NCBI RefSeq assembly: GCF_014652415.1 | Contig: NZ_BMYT01000002.1 | Span: forward strand, 310,001 to 374,000 | DNA from: Affinundibacterium macrobrachii | GTDB taxonomy: Bacteria > Pseudomonadota > Gammaproteobacteria > Burkholderiales > Burkholderiaceae_D | Direction: 5' to 3' | Length of the DNA: 64,000 nt | Part shown: in pieces, positions 23,461-56,720 of the stretch | Position numbering within the stretch: the stretch's first letter is position 1 | Layout of the letters: each line of letters opens with the position of its first letter | Translations under genes and position numbers: made by a program | The notes under the pieces: generated by a model | What the model saw: the letters and a program-made list of their open reading frames with translations, nothing else | What the model was told of the DNA's origin: nothing | Database searches by the model: none

Positions 23461-23871
23461 ATGACTACACAAAATTTAGAAACACAAGCCAATTCATCGA
23501 CAACAGAATTGATAGTGCTTGAAAACGCTTCATCCGAATATGCAGAAAAATCGACTAACTCAGGAGCAGAAAACATGAACACGAATACTAAAAACCCAGT
23601 GCTTGAATTTGTTTTAAACGTGGCAGAAACAGCTAAATATGTTTGGCAACGTTATGCAGAATGGATTATTGATGTCTCTTGGGGAAAATTATTGCTGGCT
23701 AGTTTGTTGACATTAATCGTCGGTGGTTTGTTATCTATCCAATCCTTCGCAAATTGGCTTGTCATTGGTTCTTTGTTACTGAAGTGTTTTATTGGCAAAG
23801 AAGATCAAGTGCAAACTAGCACAACCGAAACACATAAGCCGGCAGAACAAAAGCCTGATGAGGAGAGCTAA
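23461..23871 (+). CDS. Small membrane protein related to the sensor domain of the next gene
   Basis: A 136-residue protein with a Ser/Thr/Glu-rich head (about 1-40), two hydrophobic helices (about 80-93 and 97-113) and a charged tail. Its middle, from NPVLEFVLNVAETAKYVWQR onwards, lines up with the N-terminal 75 residues of the following histidine kinase (NKVLLFMLDLMETGKVFWWK), including the W-D/E-W pattern, two helices and a basic end. So it looks like a stand-alone copy of the kinase membrane domain. It ends one base before the kinase start and shares its operon. It may pair with the kinase in the membrane; this is inference. An internal ATG at 23576 would remove the head. Function unknown. 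Confidence 0.65.
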   Translation: MTTQNLETQANSSTTELIVLENASSEYAEKSTNSGAENMNTNTKNPVLEFVLNVAETAKYVWQRYAEWIIDVSWGKLLLASLLTLIVGGLLSIQSFANWLVIGSLLLKCFIGKEDQVQTSTTETHKPAEQKPDEES

Positions 23872-23872
23872 C

Positions 23873-24763
23873 ATGAAAACGGATGATAAGAACAAAGTAC
23901 TTTTGTTCATGCTGGATTTGATGGAGACAGGCAAAGTATTTTGGTGGAAGTTTTTTGATTGGCTGGCCGTCATTTCATGGAGCTACCTCATCTTTGTCTC
24001 GTTCTTAGCAATGATCATTGGTGCGATCTTAGGCTTAGGCGGATTTATACCTCTGTTAGCTTTTGTATCAATCATGATTAAAAGTTTGGCAGGCGGCAAA
24101 CGTAAGGCGGAATTAGTAGCGACTGATGCCGTGACACGCGCTGATGTTGAAGCTTTAGAGCGTCGTGTTTTAGAAGCCGAAATGGCGACTTTGCAAGCAC
24201 AGATTGAACCACATTTTTTATTTAATACCTTGGCTCTGATTGGCCAATTGATAGAAACGGATCCACATCAAGCATCGATTGTTCATCATCATTTAATTAA
24301 ATATTTACGTGCCGCTTTACCGCAAATTCGCGAACAAGGTGGTGGCAAACTAGGGCAACAATTAGAACTGTCACGCGCTTACTTGAATATCATGCAAGCA
24401 CGTATGCAAGAACGTTTGACTTATCAAATTGAATGCCCAGCTGCGCTAGAGCATGTCGCTTTTCCATCAATGATGATACAGACTTTGGTCGAAAATGCGA
24501 TTAAGCATGGCTTAGAGCCAAAAACAGATGGTGGTCACATTCAGATTATTGCGCGTCAAGGTGAACGGGAAATTCAAGTTGAGGTTAGTGATAACGGTAT
24601 TGGTTTCGATTTACATGCAGATGATGGAATTGGTTTAAGCAATATTCGTGAACGTTTAAAAGTTTTATATGGTTTGAAAGCGAGTTTGGTGATCGAGATT
24701 CCTGAAACCGGTGGCGCTAAATTGACATTACATATTCCAGAAACAAATAATGAACATGCATAA
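23873..24763 (+). CDS. LytS/YehU-type sensor histidine kinase
   Basis: A 296-residue kinase. Two membrane helices (about 28-55 and 57-72) lead to a short coiled linker and then the His_kinase domain typical of this class: QIEPHFLFNTLALIGQL, with His 114 as the phospho-acceptor, and a HATPase domain with VENAIKHGLEP, DNGIGF and GIGLSNIRERL. I start it at 23873 (MKTDDKNK) because GGAG lies upstream and the preceding gene stops one base before; the frame itself runs 27 codons further back. The downstream LytTR regulator gene overlaps it by 14 bases. The small membrane domain suggests sensing within or at the membrane. Signal unknown. Confidence 0.9.
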   Translation: MKTDDKNKVLLFMLDLMETGKVFWWKFFDWLAVISWSYLIFVSFLAMIIGAILGLGGFIPLLAFVSIMIKSLAGGKRKAELVATDAVTRADVEALERRVLEAEMATLQAQIEPHFLFNTLALIGQLIETDPHQASIVHHHLIKYLRAALPQIREQGGGKLGQQLELSRAYLNIMQARMQERLTYQIECPAALEHVAFPSMMIQTLVENAIKHGLEPKTDGGHIQIIARQGEREIQVEVSDNGIGFDLHADDGIGLSNIRERLKVLYGLKASLVIEIPETGGAKLTLHIPETNNEHA

Positions 24764-25583
24764 AATCACAGCAATGATTGTGGATGATGAAGCCCCAATG
24801 CGGGCACATCTACGTAGCAAATTAAATCAAATTTGGCCTGAACTCAGCATTATTGCGGAAGCGCAAAATGGTATTGTGGCGATAGAAGAAGCAGAAAAAT
24901 TACAACCACAAATTATTTTTTTAGATATTCGTATGCCAGGAAAAAATGGTATCGAAGCAGCAGCTCAGTTGGCGCAAAATGCGATACTTATTTTTGTTAC
25001 TGCTTATGATGAATATGCAATTCAAGCGTTTGAACGCGGTGCGATGGATTACCTATTAAAGCCTATCGACGTAGAACGTTTGCAGCAAACTTGTCAGCGT
25101 TTACAACAAAGAATTGCAGAAAAAAATACTAGTCAGTTAGCTCTATCAAATACCAATCAAGATCAAATAAAAGTAGAACAGCTAAAGCAAGAACATCAAT
25201 CAAAACAAGTAGAACAATTATTGACACAATTAATGCAGCAACAAATCCAACAAAAAGAATATTTGCGTTGGATACAAGCCAGTGTTGGCAGTAGTTTGCG
25301 CATGATTAGTACCAAAGAAATTTTATTTTTTAAATCGGATGAAAAATACACTTTGGTACAAACAGAACAAGCAGAATTTTTGATTCGTAAAACCTTAAAA
25401 GAGTTGGAAGATGAATTAGATCCTAAAGAATTTTGGCGCATCCATCGATCTACATTAGTCAGAGTCAGTGCGATTGCGGAAGTTACGCGTGATTTTCGTG
25501 GTCGACAAATGCTAGGTTTAAAAGGATGTTCCGAAAAACTCGAAGTGAGCCGCAATCATACCCATTTATTTCAACAAATGTGA
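24750..25583 (+). CDS. LytTR-type response regulator
   Basis: A 277-residue regulator with a receiver domain (about 7-125; Asp 59 in IIFLDIRMPG, Thr/Tyr switch in FVTAYDEY, Lys in YLLKPID), a Gln-rich coiled linker (about 125-175) and a LytTR DNA-binding domain (about 175-277; WRIHRSTLVRVSAIAEV). It is the partner of the kinase it overlaps by 14 bases. Such pairs often act on membrane or cell-surface genes, sometimes locally. Overlapping start and stop suggest translational coupling. Two candidate starts, MNMHK and MHK, differ by two codons. Confidence 0.92.
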   Translation: MNMHKITAMIVDDEAPMRAHLRSKLNQIWPELSIIAEAQNGIVAIEEAEKLQPQIIFLDIRMPGKNGIEAAAQLAQNAILIFVTAYDEYAIQAFERGAMDYLLKPIDVERLQQTCQRLQQRIAEKNTSQLALSNTNQDQIKVEQLKQEHQSKQVEQLLTQLMQQQIQQKEYLRWIQASVGSSLRMISTKEILFFKSDEKYTLVQTEQAEFLIRKTLKELEDELDPKEFWRIHRSTLVRVSAIAEVTRDFRGRQMLGLKGCSEKLEVSRNHTHLFQQM

Positions 25584-25640
25584 ATTATTTCAGCAGTTTT
25601 TTTTGAGACGAAAAAAGCGACGTTTTTCTTTTAATTGAAT

Positions 25641-25853
25641 AAGTTTATATATATGAATAGTAGTAGTTGTTAACGTTGAAATATTTTGTGGATAAGCGAA
25701 GTTAACCATGCAAAATCAAGGCTCTATAGAAAATATAAGTAGGCGGAAAATCTTTGTATGAATACTCAACAAAATTTGTATAAGTTTTTGTGCTTGAACA
25801 AGTAAGTGGGTTCCACACAAAATCTCCAACACTTATACACAGCCTTATCCACA
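25641..25853 (+). other. Origin-like DnaA module A (DUE, DnaA-trio, DnaA boxes)
   Basis: From left to right: an AT-rich TTATATATAT stretch, TAGTAGTAG (25658-25666) with a fourth degenerate unit TTG, then a 17-base spacer starting TTAACGTTG, and a perfect DnaA box TGTGGATAA (25687-25695). Further right, facing the other way, are TTATACACA (25833-25841) and TTATCCACA (25845-25853). The order trinucleotide repeat, spacer, DnaA box is that of the basal unwinding system described for bacterial origins. The rest of the 313-base gap (25584-25896) has no gene. It repeats the left part of module B beyond mtnN. Confidence 0.6.
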
Positions 25854-25896
25854 AAAAAATATTTTTCTTATTGTTGTTTTTGTTGGCAACAGTGTC

Positions 25897-26682
25897 TTAG
25901 TCGATTTGTATTTTTCGATTTTCAAAATAATTCTTCAGAATTTCTAAGCTATACGGTGCGGCAACGTTTTTGACAAAACTAAGAAAGTCGACATCTGCTG
26001 TTTCATCGGCGCTATCAGAAATTGTACGCAAAATCGCAAACTGTAAGTTTTGTTCATCACAAACTTGCGCTATCGCTGCACCTTCCATTTCTACCGCCAA
26101 TAAATCTGGTAAAGCTTGTTTCAACTCGCTTAACACATGGCTATCGTGAATAAATTGATCACCACTAGCAATTAATCCTGTACGTGTTTTTACCGTTTGC
26201 AGTTGAAACTCTTCAATTTGGCTTGCAGAAAAATGTGCTGGCATCGTTTGTATAAATTGGCTGGTCGCATTTTGCAGTGCTTCTTGTAAATTTTTATCGA
26301 CAAGAAAGCGTGATTTTCCCGTTAAAGGAATTTCAAAACGCGGAAATAACGGTGATGCATTCATATCGTGCTGTAGTAAGGCATCAGCGATCACGATATC
26401 GCCGACCTTTAAGCTTGGATCAGCAGCACCTGCCACCCCACTTAAAATCAATTGTGTCACGCCAAAATGATGGATTAAGAGGTTCGTGGTACTTGCTGCG
26501 GCTACTTTTCCTATACCAGCTAGCACCATGACTATCGGATGTCCGTAAAACTCGCCTTGTATGAACTCACGTTTAGCGATGTGGTGGACTTTTTTATTGC
26601 TGATGAAGTTTTGTAATCCCTCTTGTTCTTCACGCATAGCAAAGATGAGACCAGTGGTGTTGGGTTTAATAGAAATAGACAT
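25897..26682 (-). CDS. mtnN: 5'-methylthioadenosine/S-adenosylhomocysteine nucleosidase
   Basis: Hydrolyses methylthioadenosine and S-adenosylhomocysteine to adenine and the thioribose or ribosylhomocysteine. The 261-residue protein has the PNP/UDP family fold motifs: GLIFAMREEQEGLQ, VLAGIGKVAAASTTNLLI, LSGVAGAADPSLKVGDIVIA, the ribose-binding DLLAVEMEGAAIAQVC, and the catalytic-Asp region TISDSADETADVDF. It is somewhat longer than E. coli MtnN (232 residues). The upstream same-strand gene encodes a BtaA-like enzyme that would release methylthioadenosine, so the two activities fit. The gene lies between two origin-like modules, and module B occupies its upstream region and could affect its transcription. 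Confidence 0.92.
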   Translation of the reverse strand: MSISIKPNTTGLIFAMREEQEGLQNFISNKKVHHIAKREFIQGEFYGHPIVMVLAGIGKVAAASTTNLLIHHFGVTQLILSGVAGAADPSLKVGDIVIADALLQHDMNASPLFPRFEIPLTGKSRFLVDKNLQEALQNATSQFIQTMPAHFSASQIEEFQLQTVKTRTGLIASGDQFIHDSHVLSELKQALPDLLAVEMEGAAIAQVCDEQNLQFAILRTISDSADETADVDFLSFVKNVAAPYSLEILKNYFENRKIQID

Positions 26683-26730
26683 GTTTGCTAAAAATGGCTG
26701 GGTGAGAGTAAGCAGCTTTGTTTTGTATAC

Positions 26731-26944
26731 ATAAGGTATATATATACATAGTAGTAGTAGTTAACGTTGGCAAATTTTGTGGATAAGCGCGTTTACTGAA
26801 TTGAAATCAAGGATTTAGCGCAAGGATAAAGACTAGGACAATGCTTGTACAGAAAAAGAATAGTTTCTGCATAAGATTTGGGCTGTGGAAAGCATCTGTG
26901 GTTTTGCACATAAGCTCCTCAAGATATGCAAAGACTTATCCACA
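26731..26944 (+). other. Origin-like DnaA module B (DUE, DnaA-trio, DnaA boxes)
   Basis: From left to right: GGTATATATATACA, four perfect TAG units (26749-26760), a 17-base spacer starting TTAACGTTGG, and a perfect DnaA box TGTGGATAA (26778-26786). A second box TTATCCACA faces back at 26936-26944, with a one-mismatch site TCTGCATAA between. The left part, through GGATAAGCG and on to AATCAAGG, is nearly the same as module A, with identical spacing and orientation. The gap (26683-26993) between mtnN and btaA holds nothing else that I can see. Confidence 0.65.
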
Positions 26945-26993
26945 GATTTTTGGCGTATTTTGGTGTTAAGTGAGTATGAATTTTTGTAAATAA

Positions 26994-42068: not shown

Positions 42069-42084
42069 TGTTTCACGTGAAACA
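42069..42084. other. parS site
   Basis: TGTTTCACGTGAAACA matches the 16-base ParB-binding consensus TGTTNCACGTGAAACA exactly. It starts 3 bases after the TSUP stop and about 30 bases before the next gene. parA and parB lie 3.5-5 kb to the right. Confidence 0.9.
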
Positions 42085-42753: not shown

Positions 42754-42769
42754 TGTTTCACGTGAAACA
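42754..42769. other. parS site
   Basis: An exact TGTTTCACGTGAAACA, embedded in a larger perfect 24-base palindrome (42750-42773). It lies between the tail-anchored protein gene and mnmG, about 125 bases before the mnmG start. Confidence 0.9.
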
Positions 42770-42893: not shown

Positions 42894-44852
42894 ATGTTTT
42901 ATCCAAATGAATTCGATGTCATCGTCGTCGGCGGAGGTCATGCCGGTACAGAAGCTGCGTTGGCTTCCGCCCGCATGGGGCAAAAAACCCTATTGTTGAC
43001 CCACAATATAGAGACTTTAGGTCAAATGTCTTGCAATCCATCGATCGGTGGAATTGGTAAAGGACATTTGGTTAAGGAAGTTGATGCCATGGGCGGTGCG
43101 ATGGCGATTGCAACCGACGAAGCAGGTATCCAGTTCCGTATCTTGAACTCGTCTAAAGGACCTGCGGTGCGCGCAACACGTGCACAAGCTGATCGAATTC
43201 TATATAAACAAGCGATCCGTAGTCGTCTGGAAAATCAAGAAAATCTATGGATTTTCCAACAAGCGGTCGATGACCTCATGGTGGAGGGTGATCGTGTAGT
43301 TGGCGCCGTCACGCAAGTTGGCTTGAAGTTTAAGGCGCGTGCGGTCGTGTTAACTGCGGGTACTTTCTTGGATGGGAAGATCCATGTCGGTCTAAATAGT
43401 TACTCCGCTGGTCGTGCAGGTGATCCACCTGCTATCTCATTGTCTAGTCGACTCAAGGAATTGGCTTTGCCGCAAGGGCGATTGAAGACTGGCACACCTC
43501 CAAGAATTGATGGCCGCAGTATTGATTTTTCGAAGATGGAAGCCCAGCCGGGTGATCTTGATCCAGTTCCCGTATTCTCAGTAATGGGAAGTGTTGCTAT
43601 GCATCCGCGACAAATGCCATGCTGGATTACCCATACAAATACAAAAACCCATGACATTATTCGAGCCGGTTTAGATCGTAGCCCGATGTACACTGGTGTA
43701 ATTGAAGGTGTTGGCCCTCGTTACTGCCCATCGATAGAAGACAAGATTCATCGTTTTTCGGGCAAAGATTCCCATCAGATTTTCCTTGAGCCAGAAGGGC
43801 TCACTACCAACGAATTCTATCCAAACGGCATATCAACAAGTTTGCCGTTTGATGTACAGCTCGATCTTGTGCGCTCTATGCAGGGGATGGAGCATGCCTA
43901 TATTTTGCGTCCTGGCTATGCGATTGAATACGATTACTTTGATCCTCGCGGTCTAAAAACTTCGCTTGAGACACGTGCGATTCAAGGCTTGTTTTTCGCA
44001 GGTCAGATCAACGGCACGACAGGGTACGAAGAAGCGGCAGCGCAAGGCATGTTGGCGGGCTTAAATGCAGCATTGCAAACGCAGGGCAAAGAGGCTTGGG
44101 TTCCGCGTCGTGACGAAGCTTATCTCGGTGTGTTGGTTGATGATCTTGTGACCAAAGGCGTGCAAGAACCTTACCGTATGTTCACTAGTCGCGCAGAATT
44201 CCGCCTCAGTCTGCGTGAAGACAATGCTGATATGCGTTTAACCGAAATTGGTCGCCAATTAGGATGTGTCAGTGACAAACAATGGCAAATGTTCGAAGAA
44301 AAACGTGAAGCCGTTTCACGTGAAATGGAAAGATTAAAATCGACTTGGGTCAATCCTCGTATCGTCGAAGATATCGAAGCAGAGCGCGTGGTCGGGAAAG
44401 CTTTGGAGCGTGAGTATTCCTTGGCTGATTTATTGCGTCGTCCGCAAGTTACTTATGATCAACTGATGACACTCAAAGGTAAGGAAGGGCAATCTCTGGG
44501 TGGTGAAGCGGTCACCGATCCAGCTGTCAAGGAACAGATAGAAATTCAAATCAAATATTCGGGCTATATCGGACGTCAAGCCAAAGAGGTGGAGCGTCAA
44601 GCACACTATGAAAATTTGAAAATGCCAACCGACTTTGATTATTTAGAAGTGAATGGTTTGTCGATTGAAGTGAAGCAAAAACTCAATGCGCAGCGACCAG
44701 AAACCTTAGGGCAGTGTGGTCGTATCTCTGGTGTGACACCAGCCGCTTTGTCGTTGTTGCTGGTGCATTTGAAAAAACGTGGTTTTAAAGGTTTTGCCAA
44801 TGCAGCTCCTGCCAATGATGAAGAACTGAATGACAAAGTGGTGGGTGAATAG
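42894..44852 (+). CDS. mnmG: tRNA uridine-5-carboxymethylaminomethyl modification enzyme MnmG (GidA)
   Basis: With MnmE it installs the 5-carboxymethylaminomethyl group on U34 of certain tRNAs, using FAD and NADH. The 652-residue protein begins with the FAD-binding [20 protein letters not shown] and [20 protein letters not shown], has the family signature [16 protein letters not shown] and the FAD loop [16 protein letters not shown]. The length is typical. A TATAAT lies at 42829-42834, giving a likely -10, though its -35 is weak. It heads the rightward mnmG-rsmG-parA-parB set, with rsmG 3 bases after its stop. The parS-like site at 44312 lies within its coding region. Confidence 0.97.
44312..44327. 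other. Degenerate parS-like site inside mnmG
   Basis: CGTTTCACGTGAAATG matches the parS consensus at 13 of 16 positions, with the core GTTTCACGTGAAA intact. It falls in the mnmG reading frame, so the sequence is also under coding constraint. Confidence 0.5.
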
Positions 44853-44855
44853 TTT

Positions 44856-45512
44856 ATGAGTCGTTTCGATAAAGAAGCTCTGGGAAAAGAGTTAAGAGAA
44901 GGTATTGCCTCCTTAGGTTTGCCATTGACCGAAGAGCAAGTGGAAAAGATGTTGGCTTACCTTGCTTTGTTGATCAAGTGGAATTCAGTTTATAACCTGA
45001 CTTCAATCCGTGATCCCCACGATATGGTGAAGCAGCATTTATTGGACTCCTTGTCGGCGGTTCACGCATTTACGCAAGCCAAGAATATTTTGGATGTCGG
45101 TTCAGGTGGCGGTTTACCTGGCATCGTTTTAGCGATTGTTTTTCCAACCGCTTCGGTCACGATGATTGATATCGTCAACAAGAAGACCGCATTCTTAACC
45201 CAAGTAAAAGCGGAGTTGAAACTCAAAAACGTCACGGTCCATACTGGGCGAGTTGAGCTGCTGAAAGTTGAGCATCAATTTGACGTGATTACTTCCCGTG
45301 CCTTTTCTGAACTCAACAACTTCATTAATTGGTCGCATCATTTGTTGGCAGAGAACGGACGTTTTCTCGCCATGAAGGGAGTTTCGCCAACGCAAGAAAT
45401 TGAACGATTACCAGACGGATGGGCGGTCGAGAGTATTGAACCTTTGCGAGTACCAGGTTTGAATGTGGAAAGACATTTGGTGCATGTGAAGAAATTAGGC
45501 TCAGCCAAATAA
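44856..45512 (+). CDS. rsmG: 16S rRNA (guanine-527-N7)-methyltransferase
   Basis: Methylates G527 of 16S rRNA using SAM; loss of it gives low-level streptomycin resistance in other bacteria. The 218-residue protein has the N-terminal helices with LIKWNSVYNLTSIRDPHDMV, the SAM loop ILDVGSGGGLPGIVLAI, VTMIDIVNKKTAFLTQV and the RNA-site VITSRAFSELNNFINWSHHL. Its place three bases after mnmG and before parA is the widely conserved order in this cluster. Confidence 0.95.
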   Translation: MSRFDKEALGKELREGIASLGLPLTEEQVEKMLAYLALLIKWNSVYNLTSIRDPHDMVKQHLLDSLSAVHAFTQAKNILDVGSGGGLPGIVLAIVFPTASVTMIDIVNKKTAFLTQVKAELKLKNVTVHTGRVELLKVEHQFDVITSRAFSELNNFINWSHHLLAENGRFLAMKGVSPTQEIERLPDGWAVESIEPLRVPGLNVERHLVHVKKLGSAK

Positions 45513-45538
45513 GTCAGCAAATATAAGTAAGCAAATCA

Positions 45539-45554
45539 AGTTACACGTGAAACA
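45539..45554. other. parS site upstream of parA
   Basis: AGTTACACGTGAAACA differs from TGTTNCACGTGAAACA only at the first base. It lies about 48 bases before the parA start, where ParB binding could also affect parA transcription. Confidence 0.75.
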
Positions 45555-45601
45555 GCAGTTCTGGGATTTTCTTTTAACCGCAATTATTCTAAAAAGTATC
45601 T

Positions 45602-46381
45602 ATGGCTAAAATTTTTTGCGTTGCCAATCAAAAAGGTGGTGTAGGAAAAACTACTACAACGGTCAATCTAGCAGCTGGTTTGGCGAAGCTGGATCAACGC
45701 GTTCTGCTGATCGATCTCGATCCTCAAGGCAATGCCACGATGGGGGCAGGTGTCAACAAAGCAAAGATAGAGTTGTCTGTTTATCAAGTTTTGCTTGGTA
45801 TGGCCGATGTAAAATCTGCCGTAGTAAGATCAGAATCTGGTAAATTTGACATTCTTCCTGCTAACCGCGAGCTTGCTGGCGCTGAAGTCGAAATGGTCGA
45901 GTTGGAAAATCGAGATAAGCGTCTGCGCTTAGCCTTAGACGAAGTAGGCGCAGACTACGACTTCGTTTTGATCGATTGTCCGCCGGCATTATCGATGCTG
46001 ACTTTGAATGGTTTATGCGCTGCAAATGGCGTCATTATTCCTATGCAGTGTGAGTATTACGCACTGGAAGGATTGTCAGATTTGGCCAATACGATCAAGA
46101 AAGTGTCTGCGAATTTGAATCCTGATTTAAAAATTGTTGGATTACTGCGCGTGATGTTTGACCCACGCATGACTTTGTCGCAGCAAGTCTCGGACCAATT
46201 GGAGCAACATTTTGGTGACAAAGTATTTAAGACCGTGATCCCGCGCAATGTGCGCTTGGCAGAAGCGCCATCGTATGGAATCCCTGGTGTCGTGTTTGAC
46301 CCATCCTCCAAAGGAGCGCAAGCCTATATCGCCTTCGGCGCAGAGATGGTGGAAAGAATTAAAGCAATCGATAAAAAATAA
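45602..46381 (+). CDS. parA: Chromosome-partitioning ATPase ParA
   Basis: A 259-residue ATPase of the ParA/Soj type that binds DNA nonspecifically in its ATP state and drives movement of ParB-parS complexes. The deviant Walker A QKGGVGKTTTTVNLAAG is at the start, Walker B is in DFVLIDCPPALSMLT, and the ATP-site DNA-contact region is around VMFDPRMTLSQQV. It lacks the N-terminal helix-turn-helix domain of plasmid type Ia ParA, consistent with a chromosomal protein. parB follows with a gap of about 20 bases. A parS site sits directly upstream. Confidence 0.95.
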   Translation: MAKIFCVANQKGGVGKTTTTVNLAAGLAKLDQRVLLIDLDPQGNATMGAGVNKAKIELSVYQVLLGMADVKSAVVRSESGKFDILPANRELAGAEVEMVELENRDKRLRLALDEVGADYDFVLIDCPPALSMLTLNGLCAANGVIIPMQCEYYALEGLSDLANTIKKVSANLNPDLKIVGLLRVMFDPRMTLSQQVSDQLEQHFGDKVFKTVIPRNVRLAEAPSYGIPGVVFDPSSKGAQAYIAFGAEMVERIKAIDKK

Positions 46382-46400
46382 TTTTATTTTAAGTATGAAC

Positions 46401-47294
46401 ATGGCAATCAAAAAACAAAAAGGCTTGGGGCGTGGCTTAGACGCTTTACTCGATGGTGCAGGGGATTTTGCTGAAGCGGTACCGACAGTGGTTGGAGCTC
46501 CAACCAGCTTGCCAGTAACACAAATGCAAGCGGGTAAATATCAACCGCGTACGCGTATGGATGAAGGCGCATTGGCCGAATTAGCAGCCTCCATTAAAGC
46601 GCAAGGTTTGATGCAACCCATTTTGGTTCGTCCTATCGGTCAAGCGAATGGCGTCACCAAATATGAAATCATCGCCGGTGAGCGTCGATTCCGTGCTTCC
46701 CAATTAGCTGGATTAACAGAGGTTGCGGTCTTGGTGAAAGATGTGGACGATCAAGCTGCGGCAGCAATGGCGTTGATCGAAAACATTCAACGCGAAGATC
46801 TCAATCCACTCGAAGAAGCGCAAGGTATCCATCGTTTGATCTCTGATTTCACATTCACCCATGAACAAGCGGCAAACGCGGTTGGGCGCTCAAGAAGTGC
46901 CGTATCGAACTTGCTGCGTTTATTGAATTTAGCGCGACCAGTGCAAACCATGTTGATGGCAGGTGACATTGATATGGGACACGCACGCGCTCTGCTGGCG
47001 GTTGATGCGGCAACACAGATTCAATTGGCGAATCAAGTCGTCGCGAAACGCATGTCGGTGCGAGACACTGAGAAGTTGGTCGCTAAAACGACGGCTGAAC
47101 TTGCTGCACCAAGCAAACAAAAAGACAAAGCCGAAAAGTCACGTGATATTACTCAACTCGAAGAAGAGTTGTCGGATTTATTGGCAACACAAGTCACTTT
47201 GAAAATGGGAAGCAAGGGTCGTGGTCAAATGGTCATTGATTTTGCCGATCTTGATTCTTTAGACGGCGTGATATTAAAGATTCGCGGTCAATGA
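46401..47294 (+). CDS. parB: Chromosome-partitioning protein ParB
   Basis: A 297-residue CTP-dependent DNA clamp that loads at parS. It has the N-terminal ParA-activating basic peptide KKQKGLGRGLDALL, the CTP-binding domain with the box NIQREDLNPLEEAQG and the arginine patch IAGERRFRAS, the helix-turn-helix TFTHEQAANAVGRSRSAVSNL that reads parS, and a C-terminal dimer domain (about 255-297). I start at MAIKKQKG; an in-frame ATG two codons upstream is also possible. The frame extends much further upstream only because it is open inside parA. The four parS-like sites within 4.5 kb form a loading zone. Confidence 0.95.
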   Translation: MAIKKQKGLGRGLDALLDGAGDFAEAVPTVVGAPTSLPVTQMQAGKYQPRTRMDEGALAELAASIKAQGLMQPILVRPIGQANGVTKYEIIAGERRFRASQLAGLTEVAVLVKDVDDQAAAAMALIENIQREDLNPLEEAQGIHRLISDFTFTHEQAANAVGRSRSAVSNLLRLLNLARPVQTMLMAGDIDMGHARALLAVDAATQIQLANQVVAKRMSVRDTEKLVAKTTAELAAPSKQKDKAEKSRDITQLEEELSDLLATQVTLKMGSKGRGQMVIDFADLDSLDGVILKIRGQ

Positions 47295-56163: not shown

Positions 56164-56720
56164 TAAAAACGGCTGTTGTGCACTCAGCTTGGACGATCAA
56201 ATTTGTTGCTTTCACCTATTTATCCACAAAAACAAACATAATATTTATCTCAAGAAATTAATTGAGAGAAAATAAAATCATAAAATTTCTTTTAAATTCA
56301 AGTGCTTATAATACCTAATTAAATTGAATCCTGCATTGGTGCTGCAAAGCACTAAATTATTCAAAAATTGCCCACAAAGTTATCCACAGCTAAGGTGGCA
56401 GTAATTATGCGGAAGTAATTAGCTCACATTTGCTTCTTTAACACCAGCAAGACATTGCAATAAAATCTCTATAGTTTCCTCTTTGGAAGCATTTCATGCA
56501 GGGTCGACTGTTCGTAATGAAAACATGCATCCAAGTAGGATTGATAAAAAGTAGCAGCCACGCCTCACTATCAACTTCAGCCTCAGGGTTTTTACCAATA
56601 TTGGAACTTGCCACGCACTACTTAGTCGAAGCCGTATGAAAATAATAAGAGGAGATACTTCGGCACCTTGTCTCTATTTCTCTTTTTCATACCCTCCACA
56701 ACAACAATAAAGGCAAGAGC
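56164..56720. other. Gene-free AT-rich region with two DnaA boxes
   Basis: About 560 bases without a gene. Two perfect DnaA boxes TTATCCACA lie in the same direction at 56220-56228 and 56380-56388. Between them is a very AT-rich run and an inverted repeat CTCAA-N8-TTGAG near 56258-56275. No TAG trinucleotide run or terminator is found. This may be a DnaA-titration site, a DnaA-regulated promoter, or just a secondary cluster; the right part must hold the promoter of the M28 peptidase gene. Confidence 0.45.

Follow-up and report, generated by a model that had tools for sequence, protein, structure and literature searches.

The chromosomal replication origin of Affinundibacterium macrobrachii probably consists of two complete DnaA-dependent units, which follow each other in the same orientation at a distance of about 1.09 kb and for which their sequence suggests a mechanism of opening. 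We rate the locus as a tandem multi-unit oriC, i.e. as a variant of known origin designs. The units join two designs that are usually kept apart, the DnaA-trios of B. subtilis and the R1-IHF-R4 scaffold of E. coli. A literature search of titles and abstract openings, with subscription journals mostly outside its reach, yielded among the matches listed no account of an Oxalobacteraceae origin or of a natural tandem oriC.

Anatomy of the two units

In the window, i.e. the whole 64-kb stretch of DNA that was analysed, two directly oriented copies of an ordered, origin-like module could be read straight from the sequence. The initial annotation had reported such copies at 25641-25853 and 26731-26944, and direct reading bore this out. 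Unit A, the left copy, is a complete unit of about 215 bp (25637..25860, plus strand), and unit B, the right copy, is also complete (26728..26951, plus strand); the core start-to-start distance is 1091. Both were delimited by sequence reading and by nhmmer, which matched A at 25639-25854 (E 2.6e-37) and B at 26732-26947 (E 3.1e-46) with a profile that was built from units including A and B themselves. Each of the two units contains all origin parts, and both are conserved.

The order of the parts is common to the two units: an AT run is followed by TAG trios, a 17-nt spacer, the DnaA box TGTGGATAA, an IHF-like site at +27 and an inverted distal box at +158. The AT-rich run of A, presumably a duplex-unwinding element, reads TATATATAT (25646..25654, plus strand), and that of B reads TATATATATA (26737..26746, plus strand). 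The DnaA-trio track of A consists of TAGTAGTAG and a degenerate TTG nearest to the box (TAG TAG TAG TTG; 25658..25669, plus strand), while the track of B, TAGTAGTAGTAG, contains four unbroken TAG trios (26749..26760, plus strand). The 17-nt spacers are TTAACGTTGAAATATTT, which follows the TTG of A, and TTAACGTTGGCAAATTT in B. Trio counts and spacer lengths are thus as originally annotated. The trio-proximal, R1-like boxes read TGTGGATAAGCG from 25687 and from 26778, and both are exact matches to TTATCCACA on the minus strand (25687..25695 in A, 26778..26786 in B).

The IHF-like elements start at +27 from R1 in both units. In A the element AATCAAGGCTCTA (25714..25726, plus strand) matches the WATCAR half and departs from the TTR half at one position, and in B the element AATCAAGGATTTA (26805..26817, plus strand) matches the full IHF consensus. 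The gene ihfA was found in the genome. The sequence shared by the two copies at this point, AATCAAGG (25714-25721 and 26805-26812), had been described as lying a few bases beyond the box; it is indeed present in both copies, but it starts 18 nt beyond the box, i.e. at +27 from the box start. The distal, inverted, R4-like boxes are exact TTATCCACA sequences on the plus strand at +158 from R1 (25845..25853 in A, 26936..26944 in B). Unit A has a second left-facing box, TTATACACA, with one mismatch (25833-25841, plus strand), and the one or two left-facing boxes annotated at the right end of each copy were confirmed.

In an alignment of A and B, 155 of 230 columns are identical, 63 are mismatched and 12 contain a gap, and the score of 63.5 compares with a best score of -9 among up to 300 random windows. 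The sequence TAGTAGTAG occurs three times in the window (expected 0.09), twice overlapping in B, and all occurrences are within A or B. In the genome of 4.27 Mb, the pattern TAGTWGTTN{5,25}TGTGGATAA matched only A and B, with no match of the reversed control pattern. A pattern that is blind to the trios, TGTGGATAAN{147,175}TTATCCACA, also matched exactly two places in the whole genome, again A and B, and its control none. No Rfam family matched at its gathering score, and an RNA-family identity of the locus was rejected on this basis.

The gene between the units is mtnN, encoding 5'-methylthioadenosine/S-adenosylhomocysteine nucleosidase (25897..26682, minus strand; NF004079, 264.7 bits with a cut-off of 169), and its start is about 50 nt from unit B. 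The annotated position of mtnN between the copies holds for the window and for some lineages: the same arrangement was found in the clade of the window and in others, e.g. in L043 (U. amnicola), L048, L056, L064, L085, L112, G060 and G061. In those loci of Massilia, Janthinobacterium and Duganella in which mtnN was found, the gene mostly lies outside the array with its start facing the first unit. We infer that mtnN is a neighbour of the origin and stands outside its mechanism. Directly to the left of unit A, a gene pair encodes a histidine kinase (PF06580) and a LytTR response regulator (23792-25583), and this pair adjoins the array in several of the nearest relatives of the genome.

Position of the locus in the chromosome

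GC skew was followed along the contig of the window (767755 bp). It was negative in all nine sampled stretches before the window and in two 10-kb bins up to 330 kb, and it was positive in the next four bins, of which the first, starting at 330 kb, holds the units, and in all 11 sampled stretches further to the right. Within the window the skew reaches its fine minimum at 23597, i.e. 2 kb to the left of A, and the skew of the stretch with dnaA was barely positive (+0.006). Among the congeners assembled as a single contig, G013 had one switch from negative to positive among 20 samples and none at dnaA (2948286), and its local skew minimum (2688636) lies beside the units (2686621-2688264). The minimum of G015 (2077832) is likewise beside the units (2076908-2077617). 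In G004 the switch lies between 1.376-1.396 and 1.5 Mb, with the units at 1385172-1385706 and a negative skew at dnaA (1233457), and a further negative zone is found at 2.25-2.5 Mb. Janthinobacterium sp. CG3 has a local minimum at 4404592 beside the units (4403090-4404386) and a weak genome-wide skew, and skew was weak or ambiguous in G026, G067 and G207. The initial annotation had placed oriC away from dnaA and had named a skew minimum elsewhere, for example beside dnaA, as an observation that would speak against this placement; in G000, G013, G015 and G004 the switch was found at the units, and none was found at dnaA.

The gene neighbourhood was inspected as well. Two perfect parS sites (42069-42084 and 42754-42769, plus strand) were detected in a scan of the window with the parS consensus, and the tolerance of one mismatch raised the number to three (the third at 45539-45554; expected 0.04). 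A cluster of mnmG, rsmG, parA and parB, a usual neighbour of origins, is located at 42894..47294 on the plus strand. Together with the gene for the ATP synthase delta subunit and the parS sites, these genes lie 15-24 kb to the right of the units. The units do not mark a clean change in the direction of the open reading frames: to the left of A, 14 of 20 are on the minus strand, 2 of 11 are on the plus strand between 27 and 41 kb, and 22 of 24 are on the plus strand beyond 41 kb. Gene direction thus gives the origin loose support.

The dnaA gene itself (C2:570189) is 233 kb away from the units. In 21 of 43 congeners dnaA and a unit were on one contig, and the distances, worked out for 20 of them, range from about 81 to 442 kb, with a circular contig assumed for two. 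In summary, a skew switch, a cluster of DnaA boxes with an AT-rich unwinding element, and nearby parABS and mnmG coincide at the locus, and its position makes it very probable that this is the chromosomal oriC.

At some distance, an AT-rich gap that follows a gene for a PPK2-type polyphosphate kinase (56164-56720) contains exact TTATCCACA boxes at 56220 and 56380, which share one orientation and are 160 bp from each other. This gap could be a DnaA-binding control site near the origin.

Conservation of both units in Undibacterium

The absence of the modules in close relatives had been named at the outset as a finding that would count against an origin, and the modules turned out to be present there. 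A core match was obtained in 42 of 43 Undibacterium genomes, and a first listing showed at least two units in 36 of them. All six single-unit genomes were inspected, and two of these, G060 and G061, hold two units, so that at least two units are present in 38 of the 43 genomes. In the remaining exceptions, the units are near contig ends (G006, G019 and G021), one unit is present (G008), or none was found in a genome that is 70% complete (G028).

The anatomy was further analysed with 235 distinct units, which were collected by pattern from the genus and from named genomes; about three of them are spurious matches (L027 on the plus strand, L033 on the minus strand, and L120), none of which is in alignment A1. 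The consensus consists of an AT run, usually four trios that are mostly TAG, GTTAAC(G), TGTGGATAA, WATCARNNNNTTR and the inverted TTATCCACA. Of the 235 units, 108 have the IHF consensus WATCARNNNNTTR precisely at +27, counted from the start of the box, compared with 6 of 4700 shuffles. A forward box with up to one mismatch was present between +100 and +260 in 228 of the 235 units; the inverted distal TTATCCACA is mostly at +156 to +159, and +158 is the commonest offset. When 57 diverse units were aligned, three of the trios began with an invariant T, and the initial T of the fourth was conserved to at least 90%. The conservation of the proximal box and of the trios exists partly by construction, because the search patterns demanded the proximal box and part of the trios.

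The distal box was not demanded by the pattern, and in 25 pairs from the genus it is exact in 24 of 25 left and in 24 of 25 right units. WATCAR was found at +27 in 18 of the left and 16 of the right units, and the stretch from -50 to -25 averages 84-85% AT in both. The trio tracks differ: runs of four TAN trios occur in 21 of 25 right units versus 6 of 25 left units, and at the triplet nearest to the box, which precedes TTAA, 23 of 25 right units have TAG and 17 of 25 left units have TTG. Arrays in which four trios are present in both units number 6 of 26 from the genus and 14 of 59 others, the latter including named Undibacterium loci. The commonest trio patterns in these other arrays are 4,4 (14 arrays), 5,3 (10), 2,3 (8) and 2,5,3 (6). 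Of 85 arrays, 65 include one or more units with four or five unbroken trios, often beside a poorer partner, and the other 20 have none.

In a midpoint-rooted tree of 52 units from 26 loci, the left and the right units form separate lineages, with the exception of G013. That genome (L018; C1:2686621-2688264) has three units, and two that are neighbours in the tree represent a local duplicate of the right-hand type. Because left and right units separate, the tree indicates that the duplication is older than the genus Undibacterium and that the copies have not been homogenised.

Distribution in the family and the order

A profile built from 57 units was used to search 145 genomes of the family Oxalobacteraceae that are at least 95% complete, with strict filters, so that the counts are low. 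No match was obtained in 8 genomes, one in 26, two in 86 and three in 25. Two or three units are therefore present in 111 of 145 genomes, and the 34 with one unit or none show that two units are not required in the family. In all 57 family genomes that had at least two places among the matches listed, these were on one contig and within 3.6 kb. Inspection of 10.8-12 kb in the single-unit genomes G453, G457, G507 and G175 revealed one full unit each and, in G175, a further partial match.

A scan that required TAGTAGT and GTTAAC yielded at least 117 named loci. Seven loci from Paraburkholderia/Burkholderia, with one full unit each, and three unrelated records were set aside, which left 107. Among the named loci listed, 87 of 107 contain two or three units of full length within 8 kb or less, 19 have one unit, in some cases at the edge of the stretch, and one has none. 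Adjacent pairs of units in the listed loci have the same orientation in 101 of 107 cases and are inverted in 6, with a spacing of 277-3571 bp. Opposite orientations were seen at L080, L097, L099, L128, L137 and L139 and, outside the family, at L317 and L326, in some cases around mtnN or other genes. In a tree of the family, in which bootstrap support is not fully settled, units cluster by position within clades, and the inverted pairs of Herminiimonas cluster together, which suggests that some pairs are younger or were homogenised.

Outside the family, a survey with an exact-box pattern gave a match in 20 of 384 genomes and linked pairs in 10 of 15 family genomes; no pair within 4 kb was found in the 384 genomes, apart from matches in G320 that overlap within one box cluster. 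The profile was then applied to 200 genomes of the order, 7 of which belong to the family. It gave a hit in 61 of the 193 others and hits within 4 kb in 8 of these, and the idea that linked pairs are exclusive to the family was dropped. Four of the eight genomes were inspected. G133, G170 and G232, from one other family of the Burkholderiales, have direct, BUS-like pairs with trios, 423-610 bp apart (L314, L315 and L316), and their profile matches cover only the part with the trios and the proximal box. G159 (L317) has an inverted pair of full length, 3 kb apart. Three of the remaining four genomes have hits 229-246 bp apart, which may represent one origin each. G305 (L326), with the same family code as G159, has a full and a partial unit in opposite orientation. 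With these pairs in other Burkholderiales, multi-unit origins are not confined to the family, in which they are commonest.

Two further observations were made in these surveys. In G223, a genome of 1.2 Mb from the order, the R1-R4 pattern matched twice, at C2:41575 and 58853 with a distance of 17 kb, and the printed sequence is the same. Two short contigs of Pelotomaculum (L047 and L089) match the core pattern of the unit, and the match is possibly Pelotomaculum's own origin.

Comparison with known origin designs

The units resemble oriC of E. coli in the proximal TGTGGATAA, the inverted TTATCCACA and the nearby mnmG. The inverted proximal and distal boxes enclose a predicted IHF site at the position it has in E. 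coli, where a WATCAR-like site, the IHF site of that origin, lies at +27 with a single mismatch in each of its halves (WATCAR and TTR); the proximal and distal boxes of E. coli are named R1 and R4. The units differ from oriC of E. coli in the R1-R4 offset (158 versus 180), in the TAG trios and in being duplicated. In a search with the one sequence, E. coli oriC matched the unit profile weakly (E 7.7e-5).

With the BUS at incC of B. subtilis the units share the order of AT run, TAG trios, spacer and TGTGGATAA box, and also the distal box, as a second, distal box is required there (PMC6669920, PMC8287927). They differ from it in being present in two or three copies, in not lying beside dnaA, and in having an E. 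coli-like IHF site and an inverted R4-like box. At least three NAN trios in the right orientation to the box, as in a BUS, are present in A (3 TAG, 5 NAN) and in B (4 TAG). The published BUS program additionally accepts a spacer of no more than 16 bp, and the box that it adjoins may have up to two mismatches. Order and orientation were thus rightly annotated as BUS-type, but the spacers, 17 nt in B and 20 nt in A, exceed the limit by 1 and 4 nt, and boxes otherwise found nearby are weak (3-4 mismatches). For a test of this rule on the collected units, L120 alone was dropped. The strict rule was passed by 48 of 234 units, a smaller share than that of the shuffles (799/2350). A spacer of up to 24 let 211 of 234 units pass but also 1045 of 2350 shuffles, so that the NAN rule is weak. 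Because the spacers are too long and the units pass no oftener than shuffles, they are not filed as a proven member, and the claim is limited to units that would work like a BUS.

The bipartite origins of H. pylori and B. subtilis have dnaA between two clusters of DnaA boxes, one of which has the unwinding element (PMC8235120). The locus shares with them two clusters around a gene. In contrast, both of its clusters have an unwinding element, and mtnN instead of dnaA lies between them. The initial annotation had considered a bipartite origin with two halves, and this reading was rejected, since the AT run and the trios, and indeed all parts, are present in each copy. Putative double origins, i.e. 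two origin-like regions on one chromosome, were listed by Gao in 2015; in the table given there, three of the four pairs are widely separated, and the remaining one goes with a repeated dnaA, as does that of BCG Pasteur (PMC4403523). The close tandem without dnaA that is kept across a family is unlike the cases in that table.

Proposed mechanism and alternative explanations

In each unit, DnaA would bind to the proximal box TGTGGATAA and to the inverted distal box 158 bp away, and IHF would bend the DNA between them. A DnaA oligomer would then grow leftward from the proximal box onto the single-stranded TAG trios and open the adjacent TATATATA run, where DnaB would be loaded. Because its trio track is unbroken and the box-proximal trio of A is degenerate, unit B is the most likely candidate for the main melting site, an assignment on which we are evenly balanced. 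Unit A would be a second, probably weaker site or an assembly platform, and its firing or its DnaA binding would add to the same initiation event. We lean slightly towards the view that both units are able to open.

Origins adjacent to dnaA are common in bacteria, and the true origin might be sought in the rpmH-dnaA region, with the locus as a relic. In two other genera the units do lie nearer to dnaA: with circular contigs assumed, the distance is about 6 kb in G207 and 49 kb in G067. However, one exact TTATCCACA is the only box in the 0.7 kb upstream of dnaA even when a mismatch is allowed, TAGTAG is absent from there, and the 20-kb stretch that holds dnaA gave no match to the unit profile. 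With these results and the lack of a skew switch at dnaA in the four genomes named above, this reading was rejected as very improbable. It is even harder to believe that the pair is a recent tandem duplication or an assembly artefact without function. An artefact does not agree with the recurrence of the arrangement in many separate assemblies. Duplications of the oriC region do occur, e.g. in BCG Pasteur (PMC4403523), but A and B share 155 of 230 aligned columns, and recent duplication was rejected because the split between left and right units predates the genus and the arrangement recurs in genomes of the family.

Two explanations concern the way in which the copies work together. The two units might form one loop complex as in a classical bipartite oriC, with mtnN looped out and neither unit working alone. 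The two clusters of DnaA boxes about 1.1 kb apart would fit, as would the looping reported for the origins of B. subtilis and H. pylori (PMC8235120), but the AT run and trios in each copy, the variable spacing, the inverted pairs and the existence of single-unit relatives make this unlikely. It is a realistic possibility, though not the one we favour, that only B, or only A, is the origin and that the other is a regulatory decoy with an origin-like look, which binds DnaA for titration or recycling. The unequal trio tracks, with a poorer partner often beside a unit of four or five unbroken trios, the TTG next to the box in most left units of the genus, and the one-unit genomes all agree with a decoy. 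On the other hand, the AT run and the distal box are kept equally in both units, which argues against mere titration, since titration would not need them, and both units have four trios in a part of the arrays within and outside the genus set. Two complete units thus remain our preferred reading.

According to the usual teaching, a bacterial chromosome has one origin. Tentatively, we propose that chromosomes of Oxalobacteraceae may instead carry two or three complete, separately inherited tandem origins at one locus, each of which would unwind and load helicase; one would have a strong and one or two would have weaker trio tracks, and initiation would be shared or staged. The tandem is present in most sampled members of the family, and both copies are complete and conserved, so that nature has performed an experiment. 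It allows one to ask if a second origin brings additional firing, control of timing or robustness.
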